A stretch of 64,000 nucleotides of DNA from Candidatus Bathyarchaeota archaeon (GTDB lineage: Archaea; Thermoproteota; Bathyarchaeia; Bathyarchaeales; Bathycorpusculaceae), in the NCBI GenBank assembly GCA_026014735.1, contig JAOZHT010000001.1, forward strand, positions 930,001 through 994,000, in the 5' to 3' direction. This document shows positions 46,986 through 59,220 of the stretch, piece after piece. The notes beneath the pieces were generated by a model. The model was given only the letters and a program-made list of their open reading frames with translations, was not told the origin of the DNA and searched no databases. A program made the translations under genes and the position numbers. Each line of letters starts with the position of its first letter. Positions within the stretch are counted from its first letter, which is position 1.

Positions 46986-47117
46986 ATTTCTTCCTCAGAT
47001 TTAAGTTGGGGCCGTTTTGCTTTTAAGGGGAAGCATCAAACGACAGCGTAGCTGAGGGGAGGGGTCACTGAAAGTGAAAGCTTATAGCGCTCAGCCATCA
47101 ATTAGTGATTGATAGTT

Positions 47118-47555
47118 ATGTCTGTTTTTGAGCCCCTGTCGGTTGCGACAACTGTATTAGTCATCCAAATTTTCATTCTAGCGCTCCTTTTCTATGGTTA
47201 CTTCTTGAAAACTAAACTAAAATTCGCCCAGCATGGAGCCGTCATGGCGGCGGCGGTGATAGCCCATGCGATCTCGATTATTCTTGTGATGATTCCATCC
47301 TTTGGCTTCTTGGTTTCGCCTGATTTTATTTTAACTGAAGCCGTCTACTTCGCAGTCATTATCCACGCAATATCGGGTGCAGCTGCCTTTGTGTTGGGGC
47401 TTTGGCTGGTTGTGGCTTGGCGGTTTAGAAAAGACGTAAAAGGCTGTTTTCCCCGCAAAAAGTTCATGGCAGTCACTTTAACGCTGTGGCTTATTGCTTT
47501 GATCTTAGGCATAGTGCTCTACGCGGTCTTCTATGGACCATTGCTGTTTGGTTAA
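47118..47555 (+). CDS. Four-helix membrane protein, DUF420-like
   Basis: The protein of about 145 aa has four transmembrane helices with histidines in helices 2 and 3 (FAQHGAVMAAAVIAHAISII and AVYFAVIIHAISGAAAFVLG). Paired histidines in this arrangement recall DUF420/CtaM-like proteins connected with haem or copper oxidase assembly, but no oxidase is in the window. ATG 47118 is chosen over TTG 47109. Its TAA stop overlaps the TAA stop of the convergent phosphoesterase by three bases. Confidence 0.65.
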   Translation: MSVFEPLSVATTVLVIQIFILALLFYGYFLKTKLKFAQHGAVMAAAVIAHAISIILVMIPSFGFLVSPDFILTEAVYFAVIIHAISGAAAFVLGLWLVVAWRFRKDVKGCFPRKKFMAVTLTLWLIALILGIVLYAVFYGPLLFG

Positions 47556-48088
47556 AGCTCAATTATCTGGGGTGTAATGGATTCGTTGGTGACTTTGAGG
47601 ATGCCCACTGAAAGTTTTCCCATAACAGACGGGGGAACCGTGGGGCTGCCCGGGTTTATGTAGAGGGTTTTGCCCTCCCACTTTACGCTTGCAACATGCG
47701 TGTGCCCATAGACAAAGACGTTAAAGCCATGCTCCCTGACGAGTTCCCGCATACGGTTAAACCCGAAGGCTATGTCTGGGTCATGCATCACACCGATTTT
47801 CCAGTCAAAAAGCCTAAGTGAATTAAGCCTTGGAAGAGCGCCAGTGATATCCATGCCGTCCATGTTGCCGTGCACTGCCAGTACTGGCGCAAGCTGCTCG
47901 AGTTCATCGATAACCTCCAATTCGACTAGGTCGCCTGCGTGTATGATGTAGTCGGTTTGCTCAAAGATTTCCAGCACCTTTTTGGGCATGCAGTGGGCTC
48001 TTTTGGGGATATGGGTGTCGGAGATTAACCCCACCGTCTTGACTACTTTTTGTGTAGGCGGCTCTTTGGTGACGAGTCCGTTTAACAT
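47552..48088 (-). CDS. YfcE/MJ0936-type metallophosphoesterase
   Basis: The 178-aa protein has all motifs of the small phosphodiesterase family: GLISDTHIPKRA, DYIIHAGDLVE, LAVHGNMDG, GVMHD and VFVYGHTHVA. The two-metal centre is intact. Substrates of relatives include cyclic phosphodiesters; the physiological one is unknown. Confidence 0.93.
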   Translation of the reverse strand: MLNGLVTKEPPTQKVVKTVGLISDTHIPKRAHCMPKKVLEIFEQTDYIIHAGDLVELEVIDELEQLAPVLAVHGNMDGMDITGALPRLNSLRLFDWKIGVMHDPDIAFGFNRMRELVREHGFNVFVYGHTHVASVKWEGKTLYINPGSPTVPPSVMGKLSVGILKVTNESITPQIIEL

Positions 48089-48179
48089 GGCATAGTTGCC
48101 TCTTAGTCATGCAGGTGCTATATCATATGCAGTGTTCAACAATAAAAAATGGTATGTAAAAAAGAAAGCATGGAGGGTG

Positions 48180-49538
48180 TTAAGTCATGAAGCGCTTAAC
48201 CGCTTCGTAGAAGACGCTAACGCCGAAGACCAAGTTCTCCACGGTTATGCGTTCATCGATGCCATGCATGCGTTTCTCTAGTTCATCGTTGGGTTCGTCG
48301 GGGCGCATCGGATGGAAACCGTAGCAGACGCTGCCGGTTTCTCTAAAGAAGCGTGAATCGGTTCCGCCGGTCGTTAAGTTGGGGGTAACACCGCAGTTCG
48401 GCTCAAGATCGCGCAGAGTGCTGCTGATGGCCTGGTAGAGGGGGGTTTGGGTGGTCGACTCTGAGCCGTCATGCATCTGAATGATTTCATAGCTTAATTT
48501 TCCATCGTCTAATTCTTGAAGCATCGATTTGATTAATGTAAGTGTTTCATCGACACTTTGCCCGGGCAGCACACGGCAATCAAAGGTTACTTCGCATTCA
48601 GAGGGGATAATATTTTCTTTGATGCCGCCCTTGACGATGGTGGGGGTTATGGTTGTTTTGGTTCGAGGCCAGATTTCTTGAGCTAGCGACTTGTCTTTCT
48701 GGGCGAGTTCTTTGAGGATTTGGTCGCTTTGCTGGGGATTGTTTAGTAGACGCGTAATCGTCTCTTTGAGGGCAGGGTTGTTCTTGGCGACTTCCCCTAA
48801 GACCTCTTTTAGGGTGGAGACATAAATTGTGGGGGCATGGTATTCTGAGAGTTTGGTGATGACTTTGTTTATGCGTACAAGCGCGTTATCAGCCATGTTG
48901 GGGGTGGAGCCGTGGCCCGGGGTGCCTTTGGCTTTGATTTTAAACCATAATATGCCCTTCTCTGCGGTCTGGACTGGATAAACGTTAACGCCGTTTTGAG
49001 GAATCGCTAGGCCGCCGCCCTCATTAAGCACGTAGGGGCACCAGAGCTTCTCTTTGTGGTTACGCAGCAGGTACCCGGCGCCTTCTTCGCCGCCGCGTTC
49101 TTCATCTGCCGTTGCCGCCAAAACAACGTCGCCTTTAATGGGGACGCCGTTTCTTTTAAGCAGCCGAAGAGTCACCAGTTCCACTGCCATCATGCCCTTC
49201 ATGTCTATGGCGCCTCTGCCGTAGACGTAGCCGTCTTTAACTGTACCAGCGAAGGGCTCAACTGTCCATTCCGCGGGGTTGGCGGCGACGACGTCGAGGT
49301 GTGAGAGCAGTAGCAGGTTGGGTTTTTCTCCTGTGCCTTTGAGGCGGGTGATTAGGCTGCCTCTGCCGGGGGCTGATTCGATTATTTCGCATTTAAAGCC
49401 GTCTTTGGCGAGGTAGTCGGCGATGAATTGGGCAGCGTGGGTTTCGTTTCCAGGCGGGTTTGTGGTGTTTATGCTGATTAGCTCTGAGAGCAGAGAGGTG
49501 ATTTCCTCTTGTACTTCAGTTAGAATTTTGATGTGCAT
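48180..49538 (-). CDS. M20-family metallopeptidase (ArgE/DapE/ACY1-like)
   Basis: The protein of about 452 aa has the two-zinc site motifs LLLLSHLDVVAANPAEW (His-x-Asp), YGRGAIDMKGMMAVEL and AATADEERGGEEGAGYLL (Glu-Glu). The lid domain lies at about 190-320. It hydrolyses amide bonds of N-acyl amino acids or dipeptides; which one cannot be told. ATG 49538 has GGAG eight bases upstream, better than the longer frame to 49565. It is divergent from an Lrp regulator at 49702 that may control it. Confidence 0.92.
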   Translation of the reverse strand: MHIKILTEVQEEITSLLSELISINTTNPPGNETHAAQFIADYLAKDGFKCEIIESAPGRGSLITRLKGTGEKPNLLLLSHLDVVAANPAEWTVEPFAGTVKDGYVYGRGAIDMKGMMAVELVTLRLLKRNGVPIKGDVVLAATADEERGGEEGAGYLLRNHKEKLWCPYVLNEGGGLAIPQNGVNVYPVQTAEKGILWFKIKAKGTPGHGSTPNMADNALVRINKVITKLSEYHAPTIYVSTLKEVLGEVAKNNPALKETITRLLNNPQQSDQILKELAQKDKSLAQEIWPRTKTTITPTIVKGGIKENIIPSECEVTFDCRVLPGQSVDETLTLIKSMLQELDDGKLSYEIIQMHDGSESTTQTPLYQAISSTLRDLEPNCGVTPNLTTGGTDSRFFRETGSVCYGFHPMRPDEPNDELEKRMHGIDERITVENLVFGVSVFYEAVKRFMT

Positions 49539-49701
49539 ATTTTGTGCTCCTACATCCTTCATCATGTTTTTTTATTCTTAAGTGTGTTTTGTTGTCTATT
49601 ATTGATGGTTTTCTGAAGATTTTTCGATTCTAAAACAATAGTGTTTATATATGATGTGAAAATGGCTATTGGTTAGAAAAAATTATTCGAGTTGAATACA
49701 T

Positions 49702-50214
49702 ATGAAAGAGCTGAAACCAATAGACTACAAGATTCTGTTTGAACTCATGAAGGACTCACACAGAAGCGACCGCCAACTAGCAAAAGCATTAGGTGTTTCG
49801 CAACCAACCGTGACCCGACGACGCGCCATGCTGGAAGAAAATTATATCGAAGGCTACACGGTCATTCCAAAGTTTGGCCAAATAGGGTTCGAAATTGCAG
49901 CAATCACCTTCCTGAAGAGTAAACTAAAATGTGAGACTGGCGAAGAAAAAACCAAAGCATTACAGAAAATGAAGGAATGGTACATGAAGCAAACCAACGT
50001 CATCCTCGTCTTAGATGGCAGAGGCATGGGTTGGGACTCAGTGTGCATTTCTCTGCATGAGAACTTTGCCAACTTCGCAGAATTCATCAGGGCTCACGAT
50101 TCAGAGCTGTCCGACTGGGTGGTAGAAAGCCAAACTTTCAACGCTGATTTGAAAGGCGGAATAGTAATCAAACCGTTCCACCTCAAATACCTAACTTCTC
50201 TAAAGCAACAATAA
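49702..50214 (+). CDS. Lrp/AsnC family transcriptional regulator
   Basis: The 170-aa protein has an N-terminal helix-turn-helix (IDYKILFELMKDSHRSDRQL, then AKALGVSQPTVTRRRAML, residues 7-45) and a divergent RAM-like domain (about 60-150). It differs from the three HTH-less RAM proteins at 1.7-4.7 kb. It lies divergent from the M20 peptidase, with a 163-base shared upstream region containing TTTATATATG (about 49639-49658). Confidence 0.9.
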   Translation: MKELKPIDYKILFELMKDSHRSDRQLAKALGVSQPTVTRRRAMLEENYIEGYTVIPKFGQIGFEIAAITFLKSKLKCETGEEKTKALQKMKEWYMKQTNVILVLDGRGMGWDSVCISLHENFANFAEFIRAHDSELSDWVVESQTFNADLKGGIVIKPFHLKYLTSLKQQ

Positions 50215-50300
50215 ACCTTTAACCCCCCACAATTTTCCCCCTCCATTTTTGTTTCCCAAATCTCTAAGTGGTAGCTATGCCGCTATCCGCCGGCGCCGCC

Positions 50301-50378
50301 TTATTTGCGGTTAACTTTTTTTAGCAGTTTCTTCTTGGGCAACTTGGGTTTTTTTACTCTAGCTGCATCTGCGGTCAC
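50301..50378 (-). CDS. Possible very small basic protein (25 aa)
   Basis: A frame beginning GTG 50378 (or GTG 50387, 28 aa) encodes TADAARVKKPKLPKKKLLKK plus a short tail: 11 lysines or arginines in 25 residues. AGGTGA lies five bases before GTG 50378. T-runs follow on the plus strand. The length and charge resemble tiny ribosome- or nucleic-acid-binding proteins such as eL41, but there is no clear match. It sits in a 236-base gap that otherwise holds a GC-rich inverted segment (50278-50300). Confidence 0.35.
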   Translation of the reverse strand: MTADAARVKKPKLPKKKLLKKVNRK

Positions 50379-50450
50379 ATTGTTCACCTAAAAAGAAGTG
50401 GTTGCTGATCAAATATAAAATAAGCGAAACAAAAAATTGGGGAAAAGGGG

Positions 50451-52469
50451 TTAGTTGAGGGTAACTGCAGCTATCTCTGAGAGGTCTGTTAGGCTGTTTA
50501 GTTTTACCTGAGAGTTTGAGAAGGTATAGAGGACGTTGTCGATGTAGAGGGAACGGGTTACCCATTCGTTTTGGGTGCTGTAGTAATCATTGATGTTTTT
50601 TAGGTGTCCTTGGCTGTCCAGCATAGATGGGTTAAGGTGGGTTATGGTGCCTTTAAGTGTGAAGCCGCCGTCTAAGCTGACGCTAAACACGTATGCGCCC
50701 TGCCAAACCGTGTCGCCGTATGCCGAGTCGCCGTACTGCTTGTTTTCTTCGCTGACCAGCGCCAAACTAACGGGGATAACCAGCAGCCCCTTTGCCTGAT
50801 CGAAGAGGAACGCCTTGGGTTCATAGAGCACCTGCGAGTCAGTGCCTCGTTCGCCGATAACGTAGTTGGAGAGCTGCGAGGGGGTATTGACGTCGCTGAC
50901 GTCAAAGAGCGCCAGTTTCACACCTTGGTACCACGCGAAGTCTTCGCGGTCAGCGTCAGCCACTGCCTCCTTGCCTACGCCAATCAAATGCGAGGCGTCA
51001 TAGGGGTGCAGGTAATCGGAGTAGCCGGGGATTTTAAGTTCACCCAGCACCTTGGGGTCTGTGGGGTTGCTGAGGTCAACCACGAAGAGGGGATCAGTTT
51101 GCTTGAAGGTAACCAGGTAGCCTTTATCGCCCATAAAACGGACTGCATGGAGGTTCTCGTTTTCCGCCAGACCCTCCAGTTTGCCAGTTACCTGCATGTC
51201 CGAGTTGAGAACATAGACATTGTTGGTTTGGGTTTCGGTACCATACCAGTTGGTTGCGATGCGGAAGTAACCGTTGTATTCATCCATCGAGTACTGGTTT
51301 AATGTGTTGCCCGGCACGCTGCCCTGCGCTTGGAGGCTCAGGTTTAAGCCGTCGATGGCGACGCGGTAGATGGCGGTGTAGCTGCCCGCGTTTTGGTCCC
51401 AGTTGGGGTAGGTGATGTAGATGTTGTCGCTGGAAACATACATGGTGGATGCGCCGCCCATCATAACCGTCATGTTGGTCGGAGCCAAGTTGTCGTCGGC
51501 TAAGCTGATGCCGTAGTAGCTGGTGAAACTGTAGCTGGTGTCATTCATGTCCGCGTAGTAGATGCAGGTAGGCGAGGCCTCGTTTTTGATGTCGCCATCG
51601 TAGACCGCGGGAAGCGGCACCACGTTATTGTAGATCCACGCGGTTTGGCTAACCACCGTGTAGACTTTGTCACCAATCATGCGGGAGTTAAAGTAGCTGC
51701 CGGTCATGGTGAAGTTGCGGGTAAGCACTGGGTTAGCTTTGTCGGCGACGTCATAGACGTTGATGTATGTGTAGACGTCACTTTGGTGGGCTGGCATAAT
51801 CATGGGTTCTGCTGAGGGGTTTTCCCATCGACTGTAATCTGTTATGTAATTGTATTTGCTGGCGATAACTACCAGTTTTTTGCCGTCTTCACTTAGGAAT
51901 AATCCTGCGGGTTGTGTGTCGTTTCCAAGCACAATCTTGGATACCACCGATGGATTTTGCGGATCAGCGTTTAAAATGTAAACCATGTTGGAAGCATCCG
52001 AACCCGAGGATGCATCGTAGCTGAAGAGGCGGTAGGTTGGCTGGAAACTTGAGAGAGTGTAGATGTATTGGCCGTCGGTTTTGACGGTGTCTGCTTCATC
52101 CACGCCTGCCACCTGGATGTTAGTGGTTGAGTAATCCATCGCGTTTGATGACGACTCTCCAGCGGTTAGTGTGTTGGCATCACTTGATTGAGGCATGGGA
52201 GCCGGAATCTGCCTAGTGCCCGTTCCGAAAAATTTGCTGTCTAAGGGCCCGCCGCCATAGTAGCCTGTGCCCTGCGAGTTCGCGGTAAGATAGTCAGCTA
52301 TCTCTTGCATGGACGAGAAGGTTTTGAGCCCCGACGCGGAGGGCGCCTGCGAAGGGAAAACCACGGGAACCGCGCCGAACACGTAAACAGTAGAGACTAA
52401 AACGATTGCACAGAGAACTGCCGCTGTGCCGTAGATTCGAGTTTTCTTTGTGATCTCTCTTTGAACCAT
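50451..52469 (-). CDS. Secreted beta-propeller domain protein (PF09826-like)
   Basis: The 672-aa protein has an N-terminal anchor (YGTAAVLCAIVLVSTVYVFG, about 13-32). A long beta-propeller region follows, of the kind described as C-terminal beta-propeller distantly related to WD40: TTNIQVAGVDEADTVKTDGQ (about 114-133) is its diagnostic opening. Blades then carry SEDGKKLVVIAS, GDKVYTVVSQ, SDNIYITYP and similar. It is extracytoplasmic and of unknown role. A winged-helix membrane protein lies directly upstream in the same orientation. Confidence 0.9.
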   Translation of the reverse strand: MVQREITKKTRIYGTAAVLCAIVLVSTVYVFGAVPVVFPSQAPSASGLKTFSSMQEIADYLTANSQGTGYYGGGPLDSKFFGTGTRQIPAPMPQSSDANTLTAGESSSNAMDYSTTNIQVAGVDEADTVKTDGQYIYTLSSFQPTYRLFSYDASSGSDASNMVYILNADPQNPSVVSKIVLGNDTQPAGLFLSEDGKKLVVIASKYNYITDYSRWENPSAEPMIMPAHQSDVYTYINVYDVADKANPVLTRNFTMTGSYFNSRMIGDKVYTVVSQTAWIYNNVVPLPAVYDGDIKNEASPTCIYYADMNDTSYSFTSYYGISLADDNLAPTNMTVMMGGASTMYVSSDNIYITYPNWDQNAGSYTAIYRVAIDGLNLSLQAQGSVPGNTLNQYSMDEYNGYFRIATNWYGTETQTNNVYVLNSDMQVTGKLEGLAENENLHAVRFMGDKGYLVTFKQTDPLFVVDLSNPTDPKVLGELKIPGYSDYLHPYDASHLIGVGKEAVADADREDFAWYQGVKLALFDVSDVNTPSQLSNYVIGERGTDSQVLYEPKAFLFDQAKGLLVIPVSLALVSEENKQYGDSAYGDTVWQGAYVFSVSLDGGFTLKGTITHLNPSMLDSQGHLKNINDYYSTQNEWVTRSLYIDNVLYTFSNSQVKLNSLTDLSEIAAVTLN

Positions 52470-52542
52470 AAACTATTCTCCTGACATGTCATTACTCATG
52501 ATTTTATTTTATACTAAGCCCGCGAACATGCTGTTCTAACAT

Positions 52543-53046
52543 TTAGAATGGCCTCATGCCCCAGACGCGGTAGGCTTCATACCAAAAGACGCCGCAGACT
52601 ATGGCGCCAAACAAGAGAATGAAGAGGTTATCGCGGGTGAAACTGTGAAACATCAACGCCAAGTAAAGCGCATAGAACACCGTTGAGAAGAGGGCATAGA
52701 AGAAGTACCGTGGAAACAGCAGTTTGCCCAGCTTGACGTAGTGCCGCAGCACCCCAATTTTAACTTCCCCCACCAGCACGTAGTGTCCGCCAACATCCTG
52801 CTTCTCCACCAAACCCAGTTCGCGCAGCTGTTCAAGATGATGGAAGGCGATGCTTGGGCTGCTAAAATGAAGCGCCCGCTGGACTTCACGGACGCCGGCG
52901 GGGTTGCCGTTTTTAAGCAAAAACCAGTAGACTTTCCATGCTTTGCCTCTTAGGGCATATTCTAGCTCTGTCTCGTTGTTGTTCAAGCAGGATTCCCTTA
53001 GCAGAGATAACGCTGCAGGGGGCATATAAGTCCAACTGTACGACAT
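52543..53046 (-). CDS. Winged-helix membrane protein (ArsR-like HTH plus two helices)
   Basis: The 167-aa protein has a winged-helix domain at about 30-95 (GNPAGVREVQRALHFSSPSI, then AFHHLEQLRELGLVEKQ) and two transmembrane helices at about 112-132 and 139-157. The layout is a membrane-bound regulator. It lies 73 bases upstream of the beta-propeller gene on the same strand, so it may control that gene or sense with it. Confidence 0.8.
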   Translation of the reverse strand: MSYSWTYMPPAALSLLRESCLNNNETELEYALRGKAWKVYWFLLKNGNPAGVREVQRALHFSSPSIAFHHLEQLRELGLVEKQDVGGHYVLVGEVKIGVLRHYVKLGKLLFPRYFFYALFSTVFYALYLALMFHSFTRDNLFILLFGAIVCGVFWYEAYRVWGMRPF

Positions 53047-53402
53047 TTTCGTCTAATAAGTAGAACAGGCTTAGCAGATTCGCCAATTTCACGGTTTTCT
53101 CTCTTAATTTTTTGGGCACATTAGGAGTCTTGTCGTTTTGGTGTGGCAGGTATGACCATTTTTGGAATGAAGTTAAGTTCCATACCTCCGCGGGTAAAAC
53201 CGGCTCACCCCCACGTCCGAGTGAGATCACCTAATTGAGACGTAAAACGATCACTGAAAATAATTGGAAACTACTAACCATTAGCGCACGTTTTGTAATT
53301 TAATGGTTCAGTTCGAAAATTTTTGCTGTTAAGGGCGTGTTAGCGGTTAACCGCAAAGCTTTAATTCAAAACATGGTCAAAATAACGACGAAGGTAATTA
53401 AA
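53047..53402. other. Intergenic region, 356 bases
   Basis: No gene is supported here. It must carry the promoter of the winged-helix gene (minus strand) and that of the secreted protein at 53403. An open minus frame from 53230 reaches into the winged-helix gene in another phase and lacks protein-like composition. Confidence 0.4.
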
Positions 53403-54008
53403 ATGAAAAAATTTTCAACTTGCAGAAAAGCGCTCTCAAAAACGTTCCTTATGGTCATAGTCGCGGTTATTGCCATTGCTGTTGTTGGAAGCGCAGCCGC
53501 AATCTATCTAACCCAAAACCCAAGCACCCCAAACACAACCGCAACACCACCAGCATCAACAAATCCCTCCGAATCCTCAACCCCCGCACCCTCCGCCTCA
53601 ACAGGCAATGGTATCGCAACTGCTACAAGCTTACAATTCTCAGTTAATCTAATAGAAAATGGGGTTCCACAAGGTGTTTACACATTCCTAGGTAAAAACA
53701 TAGGCTCAAGTAGCTCCATGCTACGCGTAGATTGTAATGAAGGCGAATATTCAGACAACACCATATACATCTTCAACGGGGTACAGCATAAAGCTTGGAA
53801 AGGTTCTGGGAATGAATGGGAGGACCTCTCAACCTACTATGACCAAGAGTACGAAACATGGAACAATTTATGGAAGAGCTATGTAGGTAACCTTACAGCG
53901 TGGACTGGAACCGGGGGCTACTCATACACTCAAAATGGCCTAACCGTTAACTTCCATGATATACAAGTTAACCCCGAATTAGCGGACTCATTGTTTGAGC
54001 ACACCTAA
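53403..54008 (+). CDS. Exported protein with N-terminal pilin-like helix
   Basis: The protein of about 201 aa begins MKKFSTCRKALSKTFLMVIV, a basic head and a 24-residue hydrophobic helix that resembles archaeal pilin-like or uncleaved-anchor signals. A Thr/Ser/Pro-rich spacer (about 42-75) and a globular C-terminal domain with several aromatic residues follow (VQHKAWKGSGNEWEDLSTYY). The ATG at 53403 has AAGGT upstream; the longer frame from 53337 has no support. The function is unknown. Confidence 0.65.
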   Translation: MKKFSTCRKALSKTFLMVIVAVIAIAVVGSAAAIYLTQNPSTPNTTATPPASTNPSESSTPAPSASTGNGIATATSLQFSVNLIENGVPQGVYTFLGKNIGSSSSMLRVDCNEGEYSDNTIYIFNGVQHKAWKGSGNEWEDLSTYYDQEYETWNNLWKSYVGNLTAWTGTGGYSYTQNGLTVNFHDIQVNPELADSLFEHT

Positions 54009-54034
54009 AAGAAAAAGGACAACTCCCCTAACAC

Positions 54035-54058
54035 AGGCGTGCTTACACGCGCCTTTTT
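54035..54058 (+). terminator. Stem-loop with T-run after the exported-protein gene
   Basis: AGGCGTG and CACGCGCCT pair with a small bulge around CTTA, then TTTTT at 54054-54058, 27 bases after the stop at 54008. Confidence 0.55.
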
Positions 54059-54579
54059 ATAAAAAATTGTAATTACACACTTAAGCACAAAACCCACGAT
54101 AGTATGCTCGGGTAAAAGATGAATTATTCTAAGCTACGAAAAAACCGATTAAACCGTGCAACCACATAAGCCCTGAATAAACCGTGTTTAAAACAACTTT
54201 GCTATAGAAGGACACTTCAGGTTTTAGCGTCCGTCATCGCCAAGGACTAATATGCTTTCGGAAGTTTTTTTAGCATCGAAATTTCGTCGTAAAAATGCAG
54301 CCTTCAAAACGTTAAATCAGCCAATGCTGAATCAAAAAGCAAGCTAGTGGCCAGAATGCGTGAAGAGGATACGCATGCCGAATAATTAGTAGAACAGCTA
54401 TAGTTGATTGTTTTTTTATGCGTACGAAAATTGGTTGTTGCTGGACTTTTCCGTCGAGCGAAAGGCGCGTGTTGTGCGGATGAAAATGCACAAGTGATCC
54501 TCCTCTGCTACCGTTGTGTTGAGTTAGGTGATTCTTAAATAAGCAGCCAGCTATTCAGACATGTCAGAGTTGCTCTCAA
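54059..54579. other. Gene-poor region upstream of the WD40 gene
   Basis: These 521 bases have no credible gene and are more A/T-rich than the surroundings. They hold the left copy of a 75-base direct repeat (54306-54380), which contains a remnant of a small zinc-ribbon gene, and the upstream region of the WD40 gene, with TTCTTAAATAAG near 54532-54543 as a possible promoter. Confidence 0.5.
54306..54380 (-). pseudogene. 3'-end remnant of a zinc-ribbon gene; left copy of a 75-bp direct repeat
   Basis: On the minus strand the segment encodes GMRILFTHSGH-stop, the exact C-terminus of the intact 43-aa zinc-ribbon gene at 55749-55880. The match continues past the stop codon into the 3' flank: both copies span 75 bases, with 32 of the last 35 identical and weaker similarity before. 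Upstream of CGGCATG the coding similarity ends abruptly. Copy 2 is at 55711-55785, and the WD40 gene lies between them. Confidence 0.65.
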
Positions 54580-55704
54580 ATGACTCGGTTTGAACTAGCA
54601 AAACCCAAAAAGTTGGATAAAATTGAGCTTCTAAAAGGTCACCTGAGCACAGTTAACTGCATAGCATTAACCCCTAACGGTTGCTGCTTGGTCTCTGGAA
54701 GCCAAGACAAGACCGCTCGCGTGTGGTCCATGCTAGATGGCGAGTGCCTACGCGTCCTCAAAGGACACCAAGGACCTATTAACAGCGTAGTTGTAAGTGG
54801 CGATGGCAAGTTCGCAGTCACTGGCAGCAGCGATAAAAAGATAATCGTTTGGTCGCTGCAGGATGGAGAAGCCTTGGCAACTTTGGAAGGCCACCAAAGC
54901 GTTTTAGGCGTGATGTCTCTTGCCTTAAGCGCAGACGGCAGAATTTTGGTTTCAAGCGACAAAGTTAAGGAAATGTTTGTGTGGTCTTTGCCAAATCGAA
55001 AACGAGTTTGCCAAGTTAAGCCTCCTAGAAAAAGATACCTTTCCGGTGACATTGCGATGACAGTTGACGGGCGCTATGCTGTCGTGGGTGACTTCGTTTG
55101 GTCCTTGCCAACTAAAGCAGGCCTTTTTGCTAGTGCTAAACAGTTGTTCTCCATTGGATCGTTAGGTGCCATTATAACGTATGATGGGGTGCTCATCAAT
55201 CACGTCGGGGGGACAAGAATCATGCTAAGGCCGCTCTTTACCCGAAGTGAGGTTGACGGAGTCATTCATTACGAAGTAGCCAGTCGCAGCGATACATCTA
55301 ACGGGACATACGGTTACACAGCCGCCTATGGAGGTGCATGTAACCTTTACTCAGGCACTCCCTCCCCGGATAGCAACGCTTACGACGGAAATATTACGGC
55401 CCTGGGAGTTAGCCCCGACGGAGGAAAACTGGCCTCTATCACAGACCACCACATTGTAATTCGTAGGCTCGATAACGGATGGCCCGAGACTTTCCTCTCA
55501 TATCCAGACGAAAAATACTTCAACTTGCATTCGGTGAAAAAACAAGGTCCGGGCTACACTTACAAGTCAAAAGAGCCAACTTGCGAACTAAACGAAATCG
55601 TGCTTGACTCAGACGTGAACACCGTCGCGGCTAGTGGCGACAGCAAGTACATTTTTCTCTGGCGCGGAAATTCAGAAACGGCACAAAAAGGAAAAAAGGT
55701 TTGA
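54580..55704 (+). CDS. WD40-repeat protein
   Basis: The 374-aa protein has clear WD40 repeats in its N-terminal half: LKGHLSTVNCIALTPNGCCL, then SGSQDKTARVWSMLDGECL; LKGHQGPINSVVVSGDGKF, then SDKKIIVWSLQDG; and LEGHQSVLGVMSLALSADGR. Later blades degenerate (ITALGVSPDGGKLASITDHH). It has no signal peptide, so it is cytoplasmic, probably a scaffold. WD40 proteins of this kind are uncommon in archaea, so transfer is likely. It is enclosed by two copies of a 75-base repeat, which suggests that it came in as a cassette. Confidence 0.85.
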   Translation: MTRFELAKPKKLDKIELLKGHLSTVNCIALTPNGCCLVSGSQDKTARVWSMLDGECLRVLKGHQGPINSVVVSGDGKFAVTGSSDKKIIVWSLQDGEALATLEGHQSVLGVMSLALSADGRILVSSDKVKEMFVWSLPNRKRVCQVKPPRKRYLSGDIAMTVDGRYAVVGDFVWSLPTKAGLFASAKQLFSIGSLGAIITYDGVLINHVGGTRIMLRPLFTRSEVDGVIHYEVASRSDTSNGTYGYTAAYGGACNLYSGTPSPDSNAYDGNITALGVSPDGGKLASITDHHIVIRRLDNGWPETFLSYPDEKYFNLHSVKKQGPGYTYKSKEPTCELNEIVLDSDVNTVAASGDSKYIFLWRGNSETAQKGKKV

Positions 55705-55710
55705 GCCGAC

Positions 55711-55785
55711 AAAACGTTTAGAGCAACCGTCGCAGAATCAAAAACTGTTTAGTGCCCTGAATGAGTGAAGAGGATACGCATGCCG
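55711..55785 (-). repeat. Right copy of the 75-bp direct repeat flanking the WD40 gene
   Basis: The segment covers the last 12 codons of the zinc-ribbon gene 55749-55880 and about 38 bases of its 3' flank. The left copy is at 54306-54380. The two copies share a perfect run of 21 bases, GTGAAGAGGATACGCATGCC plus G. Confidence 0.7.
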
Positions 55786-55880
55786 CATTTTGGGCATTCA
55801 TGATAGAGCATTTTGCCGTTGCCATCGCATACAGGCTTCATTTCCTCGTAGCATTCGGGGCAGAGACGCTTAGGGTCCAT
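55749..55880 (-). CDS. 43-aa zinc-ribbon protein
   Basis: The frame reads MDPKRLCPECYEEMKPVCDG, then HECPKCGMRIL and FTHSGH. Two CPxC pairs (residues 7-10 and about 29-32) form a rubredoxin-like zinc ribbon. It starts at ATG 55880. The 3' end is duplicated 1.4 kb away on the other side of the WD40 gene, which also shows that the frame is a real, once-conserved gene. No function can be named. Confidence 0.7.
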   Translation of the reverse strand: MDPKRLCPECYEEMKPVCDGNGKMLYHECPKCGMRILFTHSGH

Positions 55881-56000
55881 TTTGCTTCAAGAACTGATTT
55901 GCAGTCTGCGGATATAACCCTTTGCAAAGGACACCATTGAAATCTACCTGCATGGGCTTCTCTGAGGGACCCTAAGAAAGCCGAGGGCTATTTTGCCAAA

Positions 56001-58328
56001 ATGCCTATAAAAACAGACGTAGTAGTAAAGATTGGTTATCGCTTTTTGGAGATGACCTGCGTGGTTTTTTTAGGATTTAATGGAATTTTAAACAAAGACA
56101 AGAAAATTTTCACTGCCGCCCTTGCTGTTTTACTTGCTCTATCCGGTCTGCCGCTTCTCCTTGCACAGTCGGCGGCGGCGCAGTCAAACTATCTTTTCAG
56201 CGACGGCTTTGCAAGCGCAGATTTTTCGGCTTGGACGGGAACCAAAAGCTATCGCTCAGGCGTGAGTGCTTCTTTGCAGTCTGCAACTGCCCTTGACGAC
56301 TCATACGCCATGAAGGTAGCGGTGGCTGATGGCTCAGGCGAAAACGGGGTCTGCATCTATAAAGACCTCACCACCAAATATGCAGCCATTAACGCGCGGG
56401 TGTATATGCGCCTCAACGGCAACCCCGCCTCAGATGCGAAACTGGAGGTCTTCGGGTTCAGTAGCGACGGCTGGATACCTAACACCGTCGGCGCCCAAGT
56501 TAACATCCACGGCAGCGGCGGCGCCGCTCAGTGGCAAGTGGATTATTACAGGAACGGCTGGCAAACCGCCATCTTTGGCACGGTCATCCCCGATAAGTGG
56601 TATTGTGTTGAACTCAAGCTTGTCATCGGCAGAGGAACAGGGGAAACCCGCCTCTACATAGACGAGGCAGAGGTATTCACGCAGACGGGTTTAACTAATA
56701 CAGCGCCTGGAAGTTCGGTTCGCTACTTCTGTTTGGGCGTGGACGATGAATTCGGCGGCAACAACCTGAATGCGTTTTTTGATGCGGTGGCATTGTCGCA
56801 AAGCTACATTGGACCTATCTCGGTTCTGCCGACCCCGACGCCTTCGCCATCTCCGTCTCCCACCCCAACAGCTTCCCCAACGCCTACTATAGCCCCCACA
56901 GAAACGCCTTCGCCGACCCCTACAGCTACCCCAACCGCTTCCCCCACCAATACCCCAACACCTACACCTACTTCTTCCCCGACGCCCAGCCCCTCCCCAT
57001 CTCCAACTCCAACCGCAACGCCCACATCTACACCAACTCCCTCGCCTTCACCCTCGCCCTCGCCGTCACCTACCGCCTCTCCTTCTCCGTCACCTTCGCC
57101 TACCCCAACCTTAACCCCAACAATCACCCCGACGCCCACACCCAGCCCAACCCCAACATCAACCCCCACCCCAACCTACAAAGAAGCCACCCTAAACCGA
57201 CCCATACAGGCAAGCTGGATTGCAGCTGACGGAACCCTCTACGCGGGCTCAGGCAACACAGTGTATAAGAGCCCCGACGGCGGCGTAACCTGGCAATCCT
57301 TATTATCCTTCAGTGGAGCCACCACAACGCTGGACTGTGTCTATGTGAACCAGCAGGGGTACGTTTTTGCTTCGCCGGGCGCGGATTCCCTGACTTCCTC
57401 GGCGGGGCTCTATCGCAGCGTTAACGGTGGGCAAACCTGGACAAAAGTGATGGCGCTCTCTGTAGGATGCAGCATTTGGCCGATGGCTCAGGACAGGGAT
57501 GGAAACCTTTTTGCGGGGATATACACGGCGGGCTGGAGGGCAAACGCAAGCATCTTTAAAAGCACCGACGGCGGCGCGCATTGGACCACCGTCTATTATG
57601 ACCCCCACGCACGTCACATCCATGGCTTAGATGTCGATTTAAGCAACAACTACGTGTACGCCACGGTGGGGGACGTTAGGGTTACTCCTGAGTGGACCTG
57701 CTATGTCATCCGCTCAGTAAACGATGGGGCGCCCAATAGCTGGAGTAAAATCTTCACTTTACCCCAAATGCTCTCAGTGGAAGCAGTGAATAAAGTCGAC
57801 GCAAACGGTCACCTCGTTTCGGTCGCCCGCATCTTTTCAACCGACTTTGACAACGGGCAAATCTGGAGAACCACCGACGATAGCAACTTTAACTTAGTCT
57901 TTGATATGGGAGATCAAGCCTACGGCTTCTGGATTCGCTCCAACAGCCTAAACGGCAAAATCTACGCGAGCTTTCTGTGCGGTGAAGGCCCCCGGCAGTG
58001 GATTTCAGGGATATATGTCAGCAGCGACTACGGTGCAAGCTGGAGCCTCTACAAGAGTTTCAGTGGACGCAGCCCCTACGACGGTTCGCCATCGGCAAGC
58101 AACTTCCAGGATGGCACCCTCTACTATGCAGTTCAGCTAAACGGGGTCTGGCAGAACGGAGTAAAAATTTATCCCTCCTACCAGAGCCCAAGCCAAAATA
58201 CAGCGGCTCTGTCGGTTTTGGCTCCGACTGCTGAAATGGCGGTTTTGGTCGGGGTTATTTTTGGGCCCGCCCTTATCCTACATATGAGAGCAAGGAACCC
58301 GGTGGCAAGAACCAAATTGTGGCTTTGA
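56001..58328 (+). CDS. Large surface protein with Asp-box (BNR) propeller and Ser/Thr/Pro stalk
   Basis: The protein of up to 775 aa has a signal peptide ([20 protein letters not shown]). A concanavalin-like domain (about 65-270) opens [16 protein letters not shown]. Then comes a 120-residue stalk of PTPTPSPSP repeats (about 274-393). A BNR/sialidase-type propeller with Asp-boxes [24 protein letters not shown] and SSDYGASW follows (about 400-735), and a C-terminal helix anchor (about 747-765). It probably binds or cleaves extracellular glycans. ATG 56001 lies on a TATA-like CCTATAAAAAC (56003-56012), so translation may really begin further in, at ATG 56052 or GTG 56061. Confidence 0.78.
56832..57178 (+). 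repeat. Low-complexity Ser/Thr/Pro-coding repeat
   Basis: About 350 bases of near-repetitive ACCCCxACxCCT-type codons encode the stalk of the Asp-box protein. They contain almost no guanine on this strand. Slippage and recombination are likely here, and stalk length is probably variable between strains. Confidence 0.8.
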
Positions 58329-58355: not shown

Positions 58356-59003
58356 TTAGGTTTGGGTTTTGTTTGCTGTTCCAGTCATTCCCGGGGGAAG
58401 ATCTGGGAAGTTTGCGCTTACGCGTTGCTCCGCGACGGTTGCTGCTTCAGATAGGATTTTTGAGGCGTCTTCGTTGACGTTCTCGAAGTTCAATGACATA
58501 CCGCTTGAGGTGCCTGCTTCAAACATTAATCCGCTTAGCATGTTGCCGATGTCGCCTAGTTCGCCCTCTGCCTCAGGCAATACGCCGCCAAGGCCGCTGC
58601 TGACGCTGCGCAATACACCGATGCATGGACCGAGCATAGCACAGACATCGCCGAGTTCAGAGACCGTTTTGATTCTAAGCGAAACCTGATCTAATGCGAG
58701 GCGCGCGTTCATTATGAGCCGGTTCATTTTGCGTATTTCAGCCAGTTCGGTAGCGTAGATGTTGGCGTGTGCTTGGTCGTGGTCGGTGTAGGCTTTGACG
58801 AGTTTAGCGAAGAGAGCCTTGTCTTTTTGGCTGAAGCGGTCGCTTGATTGGTCAAGCTTGCTGATTTGCATGTCAAGCTGTCTTACTGCAAAGTCAAGGC
58901 GGGGTTTCAGCGGCGGCGGGGGCTGCACGGTGTCTTTTAGGGCGTTGATCATTGAGTCGCCTTCTTTTTTAGATTCCCATTTTTTAGCAAATCGTTCAGA
59001 CAT
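58356..59003 (-). CDS. cdvB: ESCRT-III/Snf7 family protein, CdvB-like
   Basis: The protein of about 215 aa belongs to the archaeal ESCRT-III (CdvB) family, which forms constricting filaments in cell division or vesicle budding. The core (about 33-150) starts LKPRLDFAVRQLDMQISKLD and continues in helices SQKDKALFAKLVKAYTDHDQ, IRKMNRLIMNARLALDQVSL and ISELGD-like segments. The C-terminal ANFPDLPPGMTG resembles a MIM2 motif for the MIT domain of the Vps4/CdvC ATPase. The winged helix of Sulfolobus CdvB, which binds CdvA, is absent. ATG 59003 has GAGG eight bases upstream; the frame to 59126 is not supported. CdvA and CdvC are not in the window. Confidence 0.88.
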   Translation of the reverse strand: MSERFAKKWESKKEGDSMINALKDTVQPPPPLKPRLDFAVRQLDMQISKLDQSSDRFSQKDKALFAKLVKAYTDHDQAHANIYATELAEIRKMNRLIMNARLALDQVSLRIKTVSELGDVCAMLGPCIGVLRSVSSGLGGVLPEAEGELGDIGNMLSGLMFEAGTSSGMSLNFENVNEDASKILSEAATVAEQRVSANFPDLPPGMTGTANKTQT

Positions 59004-59220
59004 GTTAACATCCTCTTGAACACCGATACGGCAAATGACGCTTTTAATTGTTGCTAACATGCAGGTATATATGTAAAAAACAGTGCGTGTTTCCTGCGCG
59101 ATCAAGTTAACCACAATCACCTGCAAGCATAGAAGAAAAAGGCAGTCACCACCAAAATCCCAAAAGAGAGGAATTAAAGCGCTCTTAACCTAAAAACACG
59201 TAAAATTGATATGCTGAAAA

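Follow-up and report, generated by a model that had tools for sequence, protein, structure and literature searches.

Comparison with related genomes supports the view that a WD40-repeat gene in this archaeal genome is a lineage-specific gain, inserted at a spot for variable genes between a small zinc-ribbon gene (ZNR) and the gene for an HTH regulator. The spot lies in a 64-kb stretch of DNA, which we call the window. We read the locus as two versions of one spot, each with its own cargo, that were joined by one-sided homologous recombination, either homology-facilitated illegitimate recombination (HFIR) or a single crossover; we give this reading about an even chance of being right. The case is a well-resolved, fairly ordinary gene gain, and a new mobile element is not proven. 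What it provides is a base-resolution record, complete with empty sites, of single-gene gains by an archaeal lineage of the uncultured type at one intergenic spot whose neighbours (CdvB/ESCRT-III-like, ZNR, HTH and beta-propeller) are conserved genes. The features concerned are, in window coordinates:

50451-52469, minus strand: gene for a Beta_propel (PF09826) protein, conserved downstream of HTH
52543-53046, minus strand: gene for the HTH regulator, bordering the spot on the left; start probably the TTG at 52986, TATA at 53024-53029
53054-53068, minus strand: upstream box of the HTH promoter, CTGTTCTACTTATTA; CTGTTCTA is conserved in 12 congeners
53403-54008, plus strand: pilin-like or secreted protein gene, the second gene of the spot (Pilin_N, below cut-off)
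54299-54383, minus strand: left repeat copy (remnant); its coding part, 54344-54379, reads GMRILFTHSGH followed by TAG
54383-54397, minus strand: second copy of the box, CTGTTCTACTAATTA, abutting the 5' edge of the ZNR remnant
54580-55704, plus strand: WD40 gene, 374 aa (Pfam PF00400, 4e-30)
55704-55788, minus strand: right repeat copy, comprising the last 13 codons of ZNR, the stop codon and about 45 bp downstream, up to the WD40 stop codon
55749-55880, minus strand: ZNR, intact 43-aa zinc-ribbon gene (CxxC...CxxC) ending in ...CPKCGMRILFTHSGH, with a clear full-length match in 13 congeners

The ZNR–HTH gap in related genomes

We compared the region across 31 congeners (designated by G numbers below), locating it by its HTH, beta-propeller, ZNR and CdvB-like neighbours. 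The order ZNR–HTH–beta-propeller is kept wherever ZNR adjoins HTH. In six congeners (G012, G023, G004, G018, G015 and G028) the gap is empty and measures about 100 bp, mostly HTH promoter; such a site, having a single ZNR and lacking the WD40 gene, was what the first-pass annotation had proposed to look for, and it supports insertion. Elsewhere the gap holds a 270-aa secreted-type protein (G011), a 232-aa membrane protein (G007), a 206-aa protein (G017) or a 9.2-kb integrase-bearing element (G003), and in the window genome it holds two genes, pilin-like and WD40. The single-gene occupants of G011, G007 and G017 all run antiparallel to ZNR and HTH. The pilin-like gene has its best relative elsewhere in G011 (C5:191686). 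An ortholog of the WD40 gene was found neither in the 31 congeners nor in 163 genomes of the order, and it is this, together with the empty and differently occupied sites, that marks the gene as a lineage-specific gain. Two full ZNR genes at the spot, which along with a universally present WD40 gene had been offered as grounds for rejecting insertion, occur in no relative examined, nor is the WD40 gene universal.

The arrival of a gene in this gap usually leaves no repeat behind, given that no ZNR-tail remnant was found on the HTH side of the cargo in G011, G007 or G017 and that a degenerate pattern of the ZNR tail, present twice in the window genome, occurs once in each of 10 congeners, there always as the ZNR gene itself. 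On the other side of ZNR, positions 56001-58328 encode a large secreted protein with BNR/Asp-box-like and Pro/Thr-rich stretches; this gene is itself variable, being present in G011, G012, G013 and G023 and missing here in other congeners. In many congeners the variable region as a whole is bounded on the right by a conserved CdvB/ESCRT-III-like gene, here at 58356-59126, which matches the NCBIfam CdvB1/B2 model at E 2e-51 but stays under its curated cut-off.

The G003 element (G003:C59:~47015-56231) splits the HTH promoter, leaving ...TGTTCTAATAACTGGACT|AATTAGTACAG... beside ZNR and ...TGTACTGGTAGCTGGACT|TATATG... beside HTH, 9.2 kb apart; the unsplit promoter of G013 and G024 reads CTGTTCTAATAACTGGACTTATAT. 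A 7-bp CTGGACT repeat marks the element ends, with inverted arms AAAATTGTACT / AGTACAGTTTT around the core, and a tyrosine recombinase gene (Pfam PF00589) adjoins the ZNR-side end. The CTGGACT repeat and the intact promoter of G013 and G024 together make the empty site of this element clear. Judged from these sequences, integration into the ZNR–HTH gap does occur in the genus, by way of the promoter and not of the ZNR tail. The element thus shares its gap with the WD40 unit but differs in using CTGGACT in the HTH promoter as its att, in bringing its own integrase and in carrying about eight other genes.

Two tails of ZNR and two copies of a promoter box

A direct repeat of 75 bases had been reported on either side of the WD40 gene. 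It is real and somewhat longer, pairing 54299-54383 with 55704-55788 at 78% over 86 columns (self-blastn, E 1e-12); the strongest ungapped block pairs 54345-54383 with 55750-55788 at 90%, and the perfect 21-base run already described is present as CGGCATGCGTATCCTCTTCAC. The right copy is indeed the 3' end of the intact 43-aa gene, and the left copy does encode its last 11 residues and a stop codon, in the same reading frame as ZNR. On one side the homology gives out about 2 bp or less from the stop codon of WD40, and the repeats therefore enclose little more than a single gene and its promoter; the other edge is abrupt at 54383.

No third copy of the repeat was found in the 2.9 Mb genome, where a 175-bp query matches two places only. 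Further copies of the 21-bp core, which the first-pass annotation had proposed to look for next to cargo genes, were found neither in the genome itself nor in 31 congeners nor in IMG/VR, and neither the ZNR tail nor the WD40 gene matched viral contigs or phages. Searches elsewhere in the genus for the non-coding parts of the spot gave no match. There is no tRNA within the 64-kb window that could have served as an integration target, and an Rfam match to U4 fell below the gathering score and was taken as chance. Just outside the left repeat end, at 54268-54295, lies a 28-bp near-palindrome, TTTTAGCATCGAAATTTCGTCGTAAAAA.

A promoter box, too, appears to be duplicated. The promoter upstream of HTH keeps a fixed spacing in 12 congeners, with the form CTGTTCTAA-N4/5-TGGACTTATAT or one close to it, and CTGTTCTAA is probably a regulator site. 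The window genome has this box about 21 bp (two helical turns) further from the TATA than the congeners do, and has a second copy beside the ZNR remnant, so that at the joint at 54383 a box copy meets ZNR codon 33. The two copies are identical at 14 of 15 bp, and a lineage-specific CTWATTA follows the box in both. CTGTTCTACTWATTA matches the genome exactly at these two places only, both at the spot, which rules it out as a genome-wide cassette boundary. The likeness was spotted post hoc: estimated from the match length and two regions of ~60 bp, its chance is ~1e-3 at the two specific positions, but of order 0.1-1 if a match anywhere in the spot is counted. We infer that the two boxes are homologous. 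In the operon direction the layout is ZNR - UTR - WD40 - box | ZNR tail - UTR - pilin - box - TATA - HTH, and the box copy abutting the remnant suggests that one spot is present here twice, head to tail, each copy with its own cargo. As a separate observation, the shorter CTGTTCTA occurs six times in the window (31436, 35673, 45388, 52531, 53061 and 54390) against 1.5 expected, a count that one of 100 shuffles reaches.

The divergence of the two tails bears on how they arose. Over the 36-nt coding part, left and right differ at four positions, all of them third positions and synonymous, one being TAG versus TAA, whereas 12 of 44 aligned sites differ in the adjoining UTR, plus indels (nonsynonymous sites versus UTR, Fisher p = 0.002). 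Had the left copy drifted freely, about four nonsynonymous changes would be expected, and the probability of seeing none is 0.011, or 0.10 at half the distance, for a test that spans 36 nt only and depends on the assumed UTR divergence. The differences, being synonymous only, suggest that the left tail diverged within a working gene, as did the right, and argue against tandem duplication of a fragment followed by decay; this alternative, raised in the first-pass annotation, is disfavoured for a copy truncated from birth. The same pattern is expected equally of two joined versions and of an integrative element that brought a functional tail. The two UTRs align with each other, within the 78% repeat, and not with the spacers of congeners, except that the left UTR weakly matches that of G007; this points to a close lineage as the source of both versions.

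An in-place tandem duplication of about 110 bp, spanning ZNR tail, spacer and HTH box, would yield the same final layout if the two spacers had later gained the WD40 and pilin-like genes separately; the spot readily gains genes, and the CTWATTA common to both box copies agrees with such an origin. We nevertheless consider it unlikely, since the geneless tail should have gathered nonsynonymous changes (P about 0.01 for none) and since two later insertions are needed, one of them ending within about 2 bp of the duplicated UTR.

A proposed joining of two versions of the spot

Under the reading we prefer, one version of the spot in this lineage would have held the pilin-like gene, and a second version, with the WD40 gene, would have become joined to it head to tail. 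Incoming DNA of a related strain may have undergone homologous recombination with the ZNR tail at one end and been sealed at the other by an illegitimate joint a little beyond the HTH-promoter box, as in HFIR; alternatively, the fragment may have formed a circle that a single crossover at the ZNR tail brought into the chromosome. ZNR would have been kept intact with the donor 3' end, the old 3' end being left as the remnant. Both donor and recombination route are our reconstruction. We favour the joining because a single event then accounts for an intact ZNR, for tails that differ synonymously, for homologous UTRs, for differing cargo and for the box beside the remnant. HFIR calls for a homologous anchor with a seamless join, and here ZNR is intact and the tails are diverged, synonymous versions of each other. 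A donor with the WD40 gene in a single spot was found in none of the congeners, the 163 order genomes or 398 genomes of the phylum, among which close strains are thinly sampled. The route would be HFIR or circularisation with a single crossover (PMC3240628, PMC5361080, PMC3784515), and there is a published parallel in the effector arrays of Vibrio, where old tails lie displaced and HFIR has been proposed (PMC5361080).

The first-pass annotation had instead read the repeat as the mark of site-specific integration into the ZNR 3' end. In that account a 1.4-kb WD40 unit with a ZNR 3' end in its attP would have entered at the ZNR tail, with the 21-bp core as att; the intact gene would have received the tail of the element, the remnant would be the old host tail, and the recombinase would have acted in trans or been lost. 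The geometry fits exactly, with an identical core at the upstream edge, diverged homology beyond it and an intact gene on one side; a repeat with an intact gene and a 3' remnant is present, relatives have the empty site, and the differences, TAG to TAA included, are synonymous only. There is also an archaeal precedent: NitEve-E2 of Nitrososphaera integrated at the 3' end of a Zn-finger gene and supplied it with a new stop codon, TAA in place of TAG (PMC6563490). Yet the WD40 gene is the sole ORF between the repeats, so that the unit lacks any integrase or recombinase; its core has no second use in the genomes and viral sequences searched; the single-gene gains of G007, G011 and G017 in the same gap came without a ZNR repeat; the integrase element known at this spot, that of G003, targets the HTH promoter instead; and the box next to the remnant would have to be a coincidence. 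Site-specific integration is thus not supported, and we regard it as doubtful, with a minority share of the probability. That the unit is an integrase-less single-gene mobile cassette, with the ZNR tail as its attachment site and a recombinase acting in trans, we hold to be quite improbable; if true, it would be a trans-moved cassette in a lineage where the adjacent promoter also serves as an integrase target (G003).

An assembly artefact that merged two strain variants of the spot head to tail would give the same layout, and the genome is a 10-contig assembly. The junction at 54383, however, has no long overlap to either side that would lead an assembler working by overlaps or k-mers to create it; the contig measures 1.14 Mb, and the copies are too diverged to be the same read. 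We consider an artefact highly improbable.

The joining of two versions has its closest parallels in the T6SS effector/immunity spots of Vibrio cholerae (PMC5361080), which likewise show a conserved anchor, a new gene beside it, the old tail and gene displaced downstream, and no integrase; here the host is an archaeon, the anchor is a 43-aa zinc-ribbon gene, there is one displacement, and no toxin or immunity genes were recognised. Transformation-linked tandem duplications by unequal crossing-over (PMC3784515) share the head-to-tail copies, the novel joint and the incoming DNA, but arise between repeats and span 100-900 kb, against about 1.4 kb here. Among the Thaumarchaeota elements integrated at the 3' ends of protein genes (PMC6563490), NitEve-E2 is alike in being archaeal, in the zinc-finger 3' end, in the TAG/TAA exchange and in keeping the frame. 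Those elements bear an integrase or casposase and have a short att (13 bp for NitEve-E2), whereas the WD40 unit is 1.4 kb long, with one gene, no recombinase and homology extending 45 bp beyond the stop codon. The case also shows that a 3'-end repeat beside cargo is, taken alone, no proof of site-specific integration, and synonymous-only divergence of the tails offers a simple test that tells joined working alleles from a decaying truncated duplicate.

The WD40 protein

The protein has three clear canonical repeats, all N-terminal (residues ~15-137). For the C-terminal ~220 aa, no relatives were detected when 229 residues were searched against the 398 phylum genomes, and in GTDB contigs the only relatives are distant ones from Verrucomicrobiota and Planctomycetota, matching over the N-terminal repeats. 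An AlphaFold model made without an alignment (mean pLDDT 46, blades at residues ~24-146 only) was too poor for a fold search, and a PADLOC match covers the generic WD40 part only. A TATA-like stretch can be read in the sequence near 54535, upstream of the gene, and the predicted product is probably an expressed beta-propeller accessory protein. The earlier remark that WD40 proteins are uncommon in archaea loses weight here, since further large WD40 proteins are encoded in the genome itself and in at least four congeners. The second one in the window genome is much larger, a 1364-aa open frame at G000:C1:65396-67141.
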